The notes beneath the pieces were generated by a model, which searched no databases, had not been told where the DNA came from, and saw nothing but the letters and a program-made list of their open reading frames with translations. This document shows, piece after piece, positions 28,072-32,391 of a stretch of DNA of 43,686 nt. Both the position numbers and the translations under genes were made by a program. This stretch comes from Amycolatopsis thermalba (GTDB taxonomy: Bacteria > Actinomycetota > Actinomycetes > Mycobacteriales > Pseudonocardiaceae), in the NCBI RefSeq assembly GCF_003385215.1, contig NZ_PQHW01000057.1, positions 1 to 43,686 of the forward strand, written 5' to 3'. The first letter of the stretch is position 1, and every line of letters starts with the position of its first letter.

Positions 28072-29025
<954 letters not shown>

Positions 29026-29304
29026 CTAGCTGGCGCCGCCGGCCACCGCGGGCAGGATGGTGACCGTGTCGCCGTCCTTGACCTCGGCGTCCAAGCCACC
29101 GGCGAAGCGCACGTCCTCGTCGTTGACGTAGACGTTCACGAAGCGGTGGAGCTTGTCCTCCTTGACCAGGCGGGCCTTGAGGCCGCCGTGCCGGGACTCG
29201 ATGTCGTCGATCACCTCGGCCACGGTCTTGCCGGACGCCTCGACCGACTTCTGACCACCCGTGTGCGTACGCAGGATGGTGGGGATGGACACGGTCACGG
29301 CCAT
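29026..29304 (-). CDS. cysO: Sulfur carrier protein CysO (ubiquitin/MoaD fold)
   Basis: A 92-residue beta-grasp protein. It carries sulfur as a C-terminal thiocarboxylate to CysM. The sequence SIPTILRTHTGGQKSV at the start and FVNVYVNDEDVRF in the middle match mycobacterial CysO. Unlike that protein, which ends in the diglycine, this one continues GGAS. The two extra residues would have to be removed, perhaps by Mec, before adenylation. The gene lies between mec and cysM in the usual order. Confidence 0.95.
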   Translation of the reverse strand: MAVTVSIPTILRTHTGGQKSVEASGKTVAEVIDDIESRHGGLKARLVKEDKLHRFVNVYVNDEDVRFAGGLDAEVKDGDTVTILPAVAGGAS

Positions 29305-29358: not shown

Positions 29359-29775
29359 TTATTCCGTGATCTCCACGGGCTCCTCGGTGACGACCCCGTC
29401 CACGATCCGGTACGACCGGAACTCGTGGGTTTCCGGGTCGCGGGTGGAGACCAGCACGTAGTGCGCGTCGGGCTCGGAGGCGTAGGACACGTCGGTGCGT
29501 GACGGGTAGGCCCCGGTCGCGGTGTGCGAGTGGTAGATCACGACCGGGACCTCGTCGTTCGCGTCCATCTCGCGGTAGAGCTTGAGCAGGTCACCGGAGT
29601 CGAACTCGTAGAACGTCGGCGAGCGCGCCGCGTTCAGCATCGGGATGAACCGCTCGGGGCGGTCGGAGCCCTCGGGACCGGCGATCACCCCGCACGCCTC
29701 GTCCGGGTGGTCCCGGCGGGCGTGGGCGACGATCTCGTCGACGAGTTCACGGCGGATCCGAAGCACGACGGACAT
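29359..29775 (-). CDS. mec: Mec, JAMM metallopeptidase that frees cysteine from CysO
   Basis: A 138-residue Mov34/JAMM zinc peptidase. The motif HSHTATGAYPSRTD gives the H-x-H-x7-S-x2-D zinc signature, with the acidic partner in DEACG. In M. tuberculosis it hydrolyses the CysO-cysteine adduct. I chose the ATG giving MSVVLRIRREL, since the longer frame runs into the gene upstream. A second job, trimming the CysO tail to diglycine, is suggested here because CysO ends GGAS. Confidence 0.94.
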   Translation of the reverse strand: MSVVLRIRRELVDEIVAHARRDHPDEACGVIAGPEGSDRPERFIPMLNAARSPTFYEFDSGDLLKLYREMDANDEVPVVIYHSHTATGAYPSRTDVSYASEPDAHYVLVSTRDPETHEFRSYRIVDGVVTEEPVEITE

Positions 29776-29776
29776 C

Positions 29777-30286
29777 TTACGTGCCGGACACCGGGGGTTC
29801 ACAGAGTGAGACTGCGCACGCCAGCGCCACGGCGTCCTGGGCGTGGGCGAGCCACCCGAGGGTGACGTCCCGCTCGGTGACCGGGAAGCGGTCCCAGGCA
29901 CGGCCGTCCCGCCACCGGGGTTTCCGCAGGTAGAGCACCTGGGCGTGGCCGAAGGTGATCATCCAGGCCCGCAGCGAGGCCGGGTCGAGCGTGAACGCCG
30001 GGGTGCCCGGCCAGCCACGCACGATCGCCCGCACGGCGGTGGTCACGCGCTCGCGCATCGCCGCGCCGTGCCGCTCGCGGAACCCCCTGGCCTCGCGGAT
30101 GAGCAGGTAGGCGTCGGGGAAGAGGTCCTCGTCGCGCAGCGGACGCCGGCCGCGGTGGCCGGTTTCCAGCGCGGTCAGCAGCTCCCCGGCGATCGCGTAG
30201 AGGCACTGGGCGACGTTCGGGGACATCTCGACCAGGACCTGGCCGTCCGGCAGCGCGTGCGCGTTCAGGAAGTCCACGTCAGACAC
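29777..30286 (-). CDS. DUF2017-like protein paired with a second ClpS
   Basis: A 169-residue cytoplasmic helical protein. No family is obvious at first sight, but its blocks follow the order of the DUF2017 protein at 31538-32095: a first helix (SPNVAQCLYAIAGELLTAL), then LFPDAY against LLPDY. Next come a helix before a glycine-rich gap, FTLDPASLRAWMITFGHAQV against [20 protein letters not shown], and a last GWLAHAQDAVAL against [14 protein letters not shown]. The GTG start overlaps the ClpS-like gene by 8 bases, the same tight coupling as in the main pair. GTG at 30277 is an alternative. I infer a divergent paralogue; the function is unknown. Confidence 0.6.
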   Translation of the reverse strand: MSDVDFLNAHALPDGQVLVEMSPNVAQCLYAIAGELLTALETGHRGRRPLRDEDLFPDAYLLIREARGFRERHGAAMRERVTTAVRAIVRGWPGTPAFTLDPASLRAWMITFGHAQVLYLRKPRWRDGRAWDRFPVTERDVTLGWLAHAQDAVALACAVSLCEPPVSGT

Positions 30287-30527
30287 CCTGCAGCGTCGCG
30301 TGCAGACCGAGCACCTGCAGTTCGGCGACCAGCGCCTCGGCCTGGTCGCGGGAGGCGAACCGGGTCAGTTCGGCGATCCCCTGGTGGTGCACGACGCCGG
30401 CGAACTCCATGCCCCGCTCGACCGGCATCCCGAGCGTGCCGTGCAGTGCGTAGACCACCGACTGGTAGGAGTTCACGTGGTCGTTGTGCACCACGACCGC
30501 CCACTCCCGTTCCCGCTTCACGGCCAT
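30279..30527 (-). CDS. Second ClpS-like N-degron adaptor
   Basis: An 82-residue protein with the ClpS fold. HNDHVNSYQSVVYAL aligns with the [15 protein letters not shown] block of the main ClpS. VVHHQGIAEL aligns with [10 protein letters not shown], and GLHATLQ with GLWATME at the C-terminus. The Asn-Asp that holds the alpha-amino group of an N-degron and the following histidine of the second site are kept. The N-terminal arm is shorter than in the main ClpS. It probably delivers a different set of substrates to ClpC/ClpA-type unfoldases, but this is an inference. It follows the P1 peptidase gene by 24 bases and overlaps its DUF2017-like partner. Confidence 0.8.
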   Translation of the reverse strand: MAVKREREWAVVVHNDHVNSYQSVVYALHGTLGMPVERGMEFAGVVHHQGIAELTRFASRDQAEALVAELQVLGLHATLQGV

Positions 30528-30551
30528 CAGATCGCCCCCACGGCAGCCGCG

Positions 30552-31541
30552 TTACTCGAACGCCTCCGGCCACACGTCCCGGTAGGCGGGCACCCCGGCC
30601 ACGCCGCGGGCGCTCACCAGCCCGTGCACGCAGGCCCGCGCGAACACCCGCGCCGCGGCGGCGCACAGCTCGTCCAGCCCGGCCGCGCGTGTCGTCACCC
30701 CGAAGGGCCCTTCGGCCGCCGGCAGGTCCCGCGCGCCCGTGGCCAGGGCGAACACGGTGTCGCCGTCGAACATCGAGTGCGCCGGGCGCACCGCGCGCGC
30801 CAGGCCGTCCTGCGCCGCCACCGCGAGGCGACGGCACTCGGCCTTCGACAGGTCCGCGTCGACCGCCACCACGCCGATCGTGGTGTTCAGGTCCGTCTCC
30901 CGCCCGGGCACCGAGGCCGCCCGGTCCGGCCAGCGCGCCCCGAACTCGCCCGCCACCTCGTGGTCGGCCGCGAAGGGGCGCCCGGTCTCGAACGACACCG
31001 CCTCGCCGCGCGCGTTGACCACCGCCAGCGCGCCGACCACGAAGCCGCCCACGCGCTCGCTCGCCGTGCCGACCCCGCCCTTGAGCGACCCGACCACCGC
31101 CCCGGCGCCCGCGCCGACACTGCCCTGCTCGACCGCGACACCCGCCGCCTCGCACGCGGCGTAGCCGAAGGAGGCGTCCGGCCGGTTGCCCCACTCGCCG
31201 CGCGGCAGGTCGAAGATCACCGCGCCGGGCACGATCGGCACCACCTCGTGCGGTTCGGTGCCGACCGGAAACCCGCGGTCCTGCTCCCCGAGCCACCGCA
31301 TCACCCCGTCGGCGGCCGCGAGCCCGTAGGCGCTGCCGCCGGACAGGCAGATCGCGTCGACGTGGCGGACCAGGTTCTCCGGCTCCAGCAGGTTGGTCTC
31401 GCGGGTGCCGGGCGCGCCGCCGCGCTGGTCGACCGCGCCGGTCGTGCCCGGCGGCGTGAGGACGACGGTGGTCCCGGTCGCCCAGCCGTCCCCGATCCGG
31501 TGGTGGTGCCCCACGAGCACCCCGGGCACGTCCGTGATCAC
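30552..31541 (-). CDS. P1 family (NylC/DmpA type) self-cleaving peptidase
   Basis: A 329-residue hydrolase of the N-terminal nucleophile fold, equivalent to Rv1333. Members cut themselves into two chains, and the new N-terminal Thr or Ser becomes the nucleophile. The likely cleavage site is Asn219-Thr220 in LNTTIGVV, as in the nylon oligomer hydrolase NylC. CLSGGSAYGL (65-74) and GVGTASERVGG are further family blocks. It may act as an aminopeptidase or amide hydrolase; the substrate is unknown. The GTG start overlaps the DUF2017 stop (GTGA). Confidence 0.92.
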   Translation of the reverse strand: MITDVPGVLVGHHHRIGDGWATGTTVVLTPPGTTGAVDQRGGAPGTRETNLLEPENLVRHVDAICLSGGSAYGLAAADGVMRWLGEQDRGFPVGTEPHEVVPIVPGAVIFDLPRGEWGNRPDASFGYAACEAAGVAVEQGSVGAGAGAVVGSLKGGVGTASERVGGFVVGALAVVNARGEAVSFETGRPFAADHEVAGEFGARWPDRAASVPGRETDLNTTIGVVAVDADLSKAECRRLAVAAQDGLARAVRPAHSMFDGDTVFALATGARDLPAAEGPFGVTTRAAGLDELCAAAARVFARACVHGLVSARGVAGVPAYRDVWPEAFE

Positions 31542-32095
31542 GCGGTCAGCGCCTGGACGAGGCTCTCCTGCACCCAGGTCAGCCAGTGGTAGACCCCGAG
31601 GTGCGGCGCCCGCGGATCGTCCTCGGGCAGCTCGTCGGGCATGTCCTCGGTGACGTCGAGCGCGGTGCCCAGCGCCAGGCGGACGTCGTTGAGCGCGGAC
31701 AGCCACGCGTCGGCCTGCTCGTAGGTCAGCTTCACGTCACCGCCGTCGCGCGGCAGGGTCTCCAGGACCACCGTGGCGACGCCGACCTTCGCGTCGACCA
31801 GCTCGGGCTCGTGCAGCGACCGCAGCGCGCTCGCCGAGTCCAGGACCTCCTGGCTGGGCGTGTCCGGGTCGATCTTGTGGTAGTCCGGCAGCAGGCGGGA
31901 CAGCACCGGGTCGTCCGGCGACTGCGACGGGCCGGTGCGGATGCCGGTCAGCTCGGCCAGCGGGTCCTGCGGAGCCTCCTCGGCGCGCGCCCGCAGCATG
32001 TCCTCGAGCTGGCTCACCAGGCCGCGCAGCACCGCGGCCTCCTGCTGCTCGAACCCGGCGTGCACGCGGCCGCCCTTGCGCTGCCAGCCCCTCAC
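31538..32095 (-). CDS. DUF2017 protein (Rv1332 homologue)
   Basis: A 185-residue protein of the DUF2017 family, always near clpS in actinobacteria. It has helical parts at both ends, an acidic linker, and the conserved segment [23 protein letters not shown] at about 121-143. The C-terminal end [14 protein letters not shown] closes the domain. No biochemical function is known. Because it overlaps clpS (TCG-TGA/GTG) it may be a partner or regulator of the adaptor. Confidence 0.9.
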
Positions 32096-32391
32096 GAAGC
32101 GTGCTCCATCGTCGCCCACAACCCCGCGGCGTGCAGTTTCGTCACGTCCGCCTCGACCTTCTCCTTGGTACCCGAGGACACCACCGCGCGCCCCTTGTGG
32201 TGCACGTCCAGCATCAGCTTGGTCGCGTGGTCGCGGCTGTAGCCGAACAGCTTCTGGAAGACGTACGTCACGTACGACATCAGGTTCACCGGGTCGTTCC
32301 AGACGATCGTCTGCCACGGCTGGTCTTCGGCGCCCGCCTCGGTGCCGAGTGGTTCAACCTGCGTCTGTTCGGATGCGACAGGCGTGGTCAT
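32092..32391 (-). CDS. clpS: ClpS, ATP-dependent Clp protease adaptor
   Basis: A 99-residue N-end rule adaptor that brings proteins with destabilising N-termini to ClpC-ClpP. The N-terminal arm (1-27) is acidic and disordered. The folded part begins [19 protein letters not shown], with the Asn-Asp of the N-degron pocket, then [11 protein letters not shown] with the conserved histidine, and ends GLWATME. The ATG giving MTTPVASEQ is used; an ATG 9 bases upstream is possible. It is divergent from pncB and starts the operon that runs to cysM. Confidence 0.96.

Follow-up and report, generated by a model that had tools for sequence, protein, structure and literature searches.

We analysed a 43,686-nucleotide stretch of the Amycolatopsis thermalba genome (contig NZ_PQHW01000057.1 of assembly GCF_003385215.1, positions 1 to 43,686; hereafter the window), the minus strand of which carries a run of genes in the order clpS1, DUF2017, a P1/S58 family peptidase gene (P1), clpS2, X, mec, cysO and cysM. 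Two pairs of the ClpS-DUF2017 type thus lie close together on the same strand, as the first-pass annotation of this DNA had described. The subject of the present analysis is the second pair, consisting of clpS2, a divergent second ClpS gene, and its partner, which we call X.

The first pair is of the canonical kind. The gene clpS1 (32092-32391, on the minus strand like all features described here) encodes a canonical ClpS adaptor of 99 residues (PF02617, 2e-24; NCBIfam ClpS model NF000668, 151 bits against a cut-off of 86), and its stop codon is joined to the GTG start of the following gene by the four-base overlap GTGA, so that the overlap first annotated for these two genes is indeed there. 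The overlapping gene (31538-32095) encodes a canonical DUF2017 protein of 185 residues (PF09438, 7.7e-55). This family had been said to have no known function; it does have a proposed one, since NCBIfam names it AosR, an oxidative-stress regulator (NF051854), a model against which the window protein scores 241.3 bits, under the cut-off of 260. The AosR of Mycobacterium tuberculosis (Rv1332) carries a redox disulphide switch. The canonical protein of the window has no cysteine, and none is shown in 26 of 29 canonical proteins at class level or in 10 of 14 from the same taxonomic order (two of these 14, L190 and L195, being cut short by the profile match). Because most canonical proteins thus appear to be without cysteine, the disulphide switch does not look general. 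The source paper on AosR is listed among the references of PMC11361707 as Khan et al. (EMBO J, 2021). Between the two pairs stands P1 (30552-31538; PF03576, 2.7e-65).

The second pair begins with clpS2 (30279-30527), encoding 82 residues. Its product matches PF02617 (2.4e-11; 43.7 bits, above the gathering cut-off of 23) and stays below the curated cut-off of the NCBIfam ClpS equivalog model (41.4 bits against 86), and its best relative in the PDB is itself a ClpS (9ayn, E 0.00032). X follows at 29777-30277 and encodes 166 residues. Its start is probably the GTG at 30277 and not position 30286, because in none of its five nearest relatives (L004-L008) does an in-frame ATG, GTG or TTG occur as far as 30286, and all five have this GTG in common. 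With this start, clpS2 and X would not overlap as had first been annotated; X would instead open one base past the clpS2 stop codon.

The X protein of the window had no match in Pfam or NCBIfam, the PF09438 and AosR models included. Relatives of X elsewhere do pass the PF09438 cut-off (for example 5e-17 in genome G029, 4.6e-11 in G023 and 6.2e-5 in G003), and an hhalign comparison of the X set with the canonical DUF2017 set gave a probability of 95.5 (E 1.4e-8) over 157 columns, against a probability of 0.1 for the control comparison of the X set with the ClpS1 set. A profile built from X only, with 11 candidates scored per genome, found a match in 145 of 296 genomes of the class; at all 29 of these loci that were read the match scored higher with the canonical DUF2017 profile, and a canonical ClpS was present in the fetched stretch at 28 of them. 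Because its relatives pass the family model, the two sets align with high probability and its profile retrieves canonical members, X is, by profile, a very divergent DUF2017 relative, as had been proposed pending just such a profile-profile comparison. It is correspondingly a distant relative of AosR, but one without a match to the AosR model. AlphaFold 2 models of X and of the window DUF2017 protein, made from four-row alignments (mean pLDDT 71.7 and 71.0; not superposed), have a similar order of elements, namely strand-strand-long helix-helices-strand-helix-helix. Fold searches of the PDB with both models were uninformative, returning nothing better than E 1.5, DNA-binding or other, and no relative with a solved structure was found.

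The two genes of the second pair were found together throughout. Among 75 genomes of the window's family, which were searched with profiles built from the pairs so that a ClpS2 more divergent than the known ones could escape, there were 26 copies of ClpS2 and 26 of X in the same 25 genomes, and the remaining 50 carried neither. In this count the pieces of X in G001 and in G006 were each taken once, and G052, a canonical gene, was excluded. The X match starts 4-103 nucleotides after its ClpS2 match in all 26 cases. An earlier single-sequence search with X in 150 family genomes had given a match in 30, one of them false (L029), and ClpS2 lay upstream of X in every one of the 28 true loci (L004-L032, the window not counted). 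The pair therefore behaves as a unit, and a second ClpS standing mostly without this neighbour, the outcome that the first-pass annotation had set against its own proposal, is not what the survey returned. Furthermore, distances between X proteins correlate with those between ClpS2 proteins beyond the Mec distance (partial r 0.53 over 20 genomes, with none of 2000 permutations as high).

No second ClpS was found in 117 genomes of other families (111 with one ClpS and six with none), a scan in which up to 46 candidates were scored per genome and a weak second copy could be missed. The ClpS2-X pair thus seems confined to the window's family, where it occurs in 16 of 46 sampled genera (g13, a canonical match, is not counted). 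Seventeen of the 26 pairs sit downstream of P1 and before mec, that of G028 being cut by the contig end. In two genomes of the same taxonomic order that were read (G231 and G198), P1 directly precedes mec. Genes intervene between X and mec in G003, G049, G040 and G074; those in G003 (L183:1208-5406) and G049 (L184:1644-5318) comprise a GAF-domain gene, a 507-residue gene and small genes, the 507-residue product being an aldehyde dehydrogenase in G003. In G068 (L186:4799-5890) P1 and ClpS2 are separated by a ThiF (E1-like) gene, which belongs to the same run as ClpS2, X, the JAB gene mec and the sulfur-carrier gene cysO.

The other nine pairs sit elsewhere (G044, G047, G029, G021, G059, G007, G065, G001 and G006), and the second pair copies of G092 and G128 likewise lie away from the P1-mec position. 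An FtsK/SpoIIIE-type gene was seen near the second copy of G092. The pair of G029 (L161:5113-6995) forms one run with genes for a peptide methionine sulfoxide reductase (MsrA) and a MOSC-domain protein, which it follows. Both partners are damaged in G001, where the ClpS2 match covers only residues 2-46 of 82 and X is in two pieces with a stop.

This patchy presence (25 of 75 genomes), together with the extra copies elsewhere and the fast evolution described below, could be explained if the pair were an accessory module, defensive or selfish, at a variable chromosomal site. G026, a genome of the same genus that lacks the pair, has at its P1-mec junction (L173:2180-5240) a low-GC insert (51-60% GC) with GmrSD-type and HipA-type genes, the GmrSD_N gene of which matches PADLOC PDC-M55C, so the junction does accept insertions. 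However, neither ClpS2 nor X nor AosR had a PADLOC match, and no transposase or integrase was found among those neighbours of the pair that were scanned. We therefore consider an accessory module very unlikely.

To follow the history of the pair, we used trees from which near-duplicate loci had been left out. X forms one clade (support 100/100) and ClpS2 another (100/99), each on a long branch. Two genomes, G057 and G126, carry tandem ClpS2-X pairs before mec (L169:3783-5237 and L030:1106-2572, respectively), and their four copies, matched by position, fall into two types that are the same in the DUF2017 tree and the ClpS tree; the pair is therefore copied as a unit. The canonical pair of family f19 is the nearest attachment of both clades, with support of 84/73 for DUF2017 and 99/94 for ClpS, as it was with a smaller f19 sample. 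Two f19 genomes that were read have the order clpS-DUF2017-mec without P1, as does one f3 genome (G244). Duplication within the window's own family was not rejected by approximately unbiased (AU) tests (p 0.263 and 0.344). Of the first-pass claim that the resident pair was duplicated as a unit, the copying as a unit thus stands, while the AU tests do not decide between the resident pair and that of another family as the source.

The substrate pocket of ClpS involves residues N34, D35, D36, M40, M62 and H66 (Escherichia coli numbering, used throughout). We compared these positions in 37 ClpS2 and 57 canonical ClpS proteins, sets that include close relatives, so that the changes counted are not independent events; the G001 copy is not among the 37, and the ClpS2 of L165 and the X of L166 were too short for inclusion in the sets. 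D35 is kept in all 37 ClpS2 and all 57 canonical proteins, and so is E82, for which nothing in the analysis shows a role. The remaining positions separate the two sets: N34 is kept in 11/37 ClpS2 (56/57 in canonical ClpS), H66 in 17/37, M62 in 5/37 and M40 in a single one, these last three being kept in all 57 canonical proteins. D36 is changed in the window ClpS2, and canonical ClpS1 also changes it, to proline in 57/57. Only D35 of the six pocket residues is invariant across the ClpS2 set. By this alignment, most of the N-degron pocket is gone from ClpS2 across the family, and the residues that it keeps appear more consistent with docking than with the reading of N-degrons.

The retained Asn-Asp and His residues had been taken to mean that the second pair may recognise another class of N-degrons. 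ClpS2 would then be an N-degron adaptor of altered specificity, with X as an accessory. The ClpS2 of the window does retain N34, D35 and H66, with the gate residues M40 and M62 changed to Tyr and Ala, and cyanobacterial ClpS1 and ClpS2 differ in their preference for N-terminal residues, according to excerpts of PMC7966870. However, what holds for the window does not hold for the family: N34, D35 and H66 occur together in only 8 of the 37 ClpS2, and even within the genus H66 is lost in three of six (L006, L007 and L008), two of which are also gapped at N34. In addition, the tail of the window ClpS2 is short: 8 residues precede the core Trp, or up to 16 when counted back to the previous stop, whereas clpS1 has 25. 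With the pocket mostly lost among the 37 proteins, the case for another N-degron class is weak, and we regard an altered specificity as unlikely.

Both genes of the pair change far faster than the genes around them. Across six same-genus genomes, mean omega (the dN/dS ratio) was 0.44 for ClpS2 and 0.43 for X, compared with 0.11 for AosR (partial gene), 0.14 for P1, 0.06 for Mec, 0.10 for CysO and 0.03 for CysM (partial), and the mean nonsynonymous divergence (dN) was higher in X than in the partial AosR by a factor of about 7.5. ClpS1 drops out of this comparison, because clpS1 is absent from the flanks of L004-L008 and what matched there was ClpS2. Such values could be those of a relic under relaxed constraint with no specific role, a view that fits the loss of the pocket and the broken copies in G001 and G092 (second copy). 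On the other hand, the large majority of loci keep their reading frames open, omega is well below 1, D35 and E82 are invariant, and the pair is spread over the 16 genera given above. We find it highly improbable that the pair is a mere relic.

The occurrence of these altered genes side by side in the sampled family genomes suggests that their proteins work together. We give about even chances to the proposal that ClpS2 joins X in a dedicated Clp adaptor complex, in which X would be a substrate selector or a client. In such a complex, ClpS2, keeping the ClpS fold and the residue D35 predicted to meet the ClpC1 unfoldase, would dock on ClpC1. ClpS of M. tuberculosis binds ClpC1, and in a simulation of that protein about 42% of the energy of binding to the ClpC1 N-domain comes from D35, the largest share (excerpts of PMC6274998; we equated this D35 with the E. 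coli number by motif). X would bind ClpS2 and supply the specificity no longer given by the pocket, acting either as a substrate selector or as a client whose level is controlled by ClpS2-ClpC1P.

Several points weigh against this adaptor complex. W33 and P36, which contact ClpC1 in the simulation as excerpted from PMC6274998, are mostly not kept in the ClpS2 alignment. In the E. coli ClpAPS complex ClpA pulls on the ClpS tail (excerpts of PMC9663308), and the short tail of ClpS2 would weaken this usual route of delivery. Omega values of 0.43-0.44 also fit relaxed constraint, linkage by itself could account for the adjacency and the shared inheritance, and, given the long branches, the single origin of the X and ClpS2 clades is less sure than their support values say. 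Finally, there are DUF2017 paralogues without a ClpS beside them, which means that not every DUF2017 protein depends on such a neighbour. Seven of these orphans group as a separate clade, which is nested within the canonical clade of the family and apart from X (L154 and L156, which gave no clear match or a match too short, were left out).

Two orphan paralogues were also seen in their surroundings. The one at L151:4589-5137 adjoins an RNA polymerase beta subunit gene (Rpb2 domains) and has a Mce-type gene nearby, while the one at L155:5004-5576 lies in a run of gene sizes that resembles that of L151.

Downstream of X follow mec (29359-29766), a JAB/MPN peptidase gene (PF14464, 3.4e-31), cysO (29026-29304), encoding a ThiS-like sulfur carrier (PF02597, 1.3e-19), and cysM (28072-29022), encoding a cysteine synthase dependent on pyridoxal phosphate (PF00291, 2.8e-72). 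The second pair had been placed inside the operon of these three genes. We compared 41 mec loci, corresponding to 37 different genomes (L170, L172, L186 and L187 repeat others) and including 10 loci without the pair. The mec GTG stands at the same codon in all 41, and a TANNNT hexamer ends 5-8 nucleotides before it in all 41, compared with 0.2% at random positions. In the window this -10-like hexamer is TAAGAT (29774-29779) and opens with the TAA stop codon of X. A dyad-like element, TCTCACTCTGTGAAC (29797-29811), also lies within the 3' end of X; it is a putative -35 region and possible operator of mec and is present in G026 without the pair. By eye, TCTCAC..TGTGAAC or variants of this dyad-like sequence lie upstream of TANNNT, again also in genomes without the pair. 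The promoter-like region as a whole spans 29764-29811 on the minus strand of the window. A TANNNT-like hexamer before the mec GTG was likewise found by eye in two f19 genomes and one f3 genome, and was absent from the two f2 genomes read. Because mec has this conserved promoter-like element of its own, overlapping the end of X, mec-cysO-cysM is probably transcribed leaderless from its own promoter, starting at the GTG at 29766, with the pair standing before that unit and not inside it.

The same overlap bears on the cysteines of X, three of which are invariant among the six same-genus X proteins. We considered a redox switch formed by them and dropped the idea, because the last two of the three lie in DNA conserved as the mec promoter; nearly the same DNA precedes mec in G026, which has no X.

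The main alternative to the adaptor complex is that X, as a second protein of the AosR type, regulates transcription of the adjacent mec-cysO-cysM genes and has its stability set by ClpS2, the whole forming a sulfur/redox module. This would agree with the assignment of the canonical family to an oxidative-stress regulator in NCBIfam, with the activation of the mec-cysO-cysM genes by SigH/AosR in M. tuberculosis (excerpts of PMC11439070), and with the position of mec downstream of X within the fetched stretch in 20 of 28 X loci. The MsrA and MOSC genes that the pair follows in G029 and the ThiF gene between P1 and ClpS2 in G068 would also suit such a module. However, eleven pairs are away from mec, three of which look damaged or partial (G001, G006 and the second copy of G092), and the 10 loci that lack the pair have an equally conserved mec promoter. 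There is also no SigH-type motif near the genes: a SigH/SigR-type consensus pattern had two matches in the window, none near the genes, where 2.8 were expected by chance, and SigH control was not retained as a candidate. As the AosR of the window has no cysteine, the disulphide switch of the M. tuberculosis protein cannot work there, and the models of X and DUF2017 gave no significant fold match, DNA-binding or other. We judge a second regulator of this type to be rather unlikely, though it is the strongest of the competing explanations.

Compared with known systems, the second pair is like the canonical clpS-DUF2017 (AosR) pair in gene order, direct coupling and sequence families. It differs in being found in one family only, in having a ClpS with the pocket mostly lost, and in the roughly 7.5-fold dN of its DUF2017 relative. 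Cyanobacteria likewise have two ClpS paralogues in one cell, but their ClpS2 binds N-terminal residues (excerpts of PMC7966870), whereas the ClpS2 described here is mostly without the pocket and is accompanied by a second protein. The nearest published idea that we found concerns plants, in which substrate delivery by a binary ClpF-ClpS1 complex has been proposed (excerpts of the same paper). There too a ClpS would act with a second, unrelated partner; ClpF, however, has UVR and YccV domains, whereas X is a DUF2017 relative.

A full-text search of the open-licence literature found no paper on DUF2017 alone or on DUF2017 together with ClpS and, as far as that search went, the reason for the clpS-DUF2017 (AosR) linkage in actinobacteria is unexplained. 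A second pair that is duplicated, co-inherited and fast-diverging argues that this linkage is a working partnership, and it provides a natural test pair in an environmental genus. Moreover, this is a ClpS in which the N-degron pocket is lost but other positions remain invariant, which may allow two functions of the adaptor to be told apart. It is possible, although we hold this only tentatively, that a ClpS2 that no longer reads N-degrons is the ClpC1-docking half of an obligate complex, of which the DUF2017 protein would be the fast-changing recognition half. If this is true, the recognition half would be changing fast because its targets change fast.

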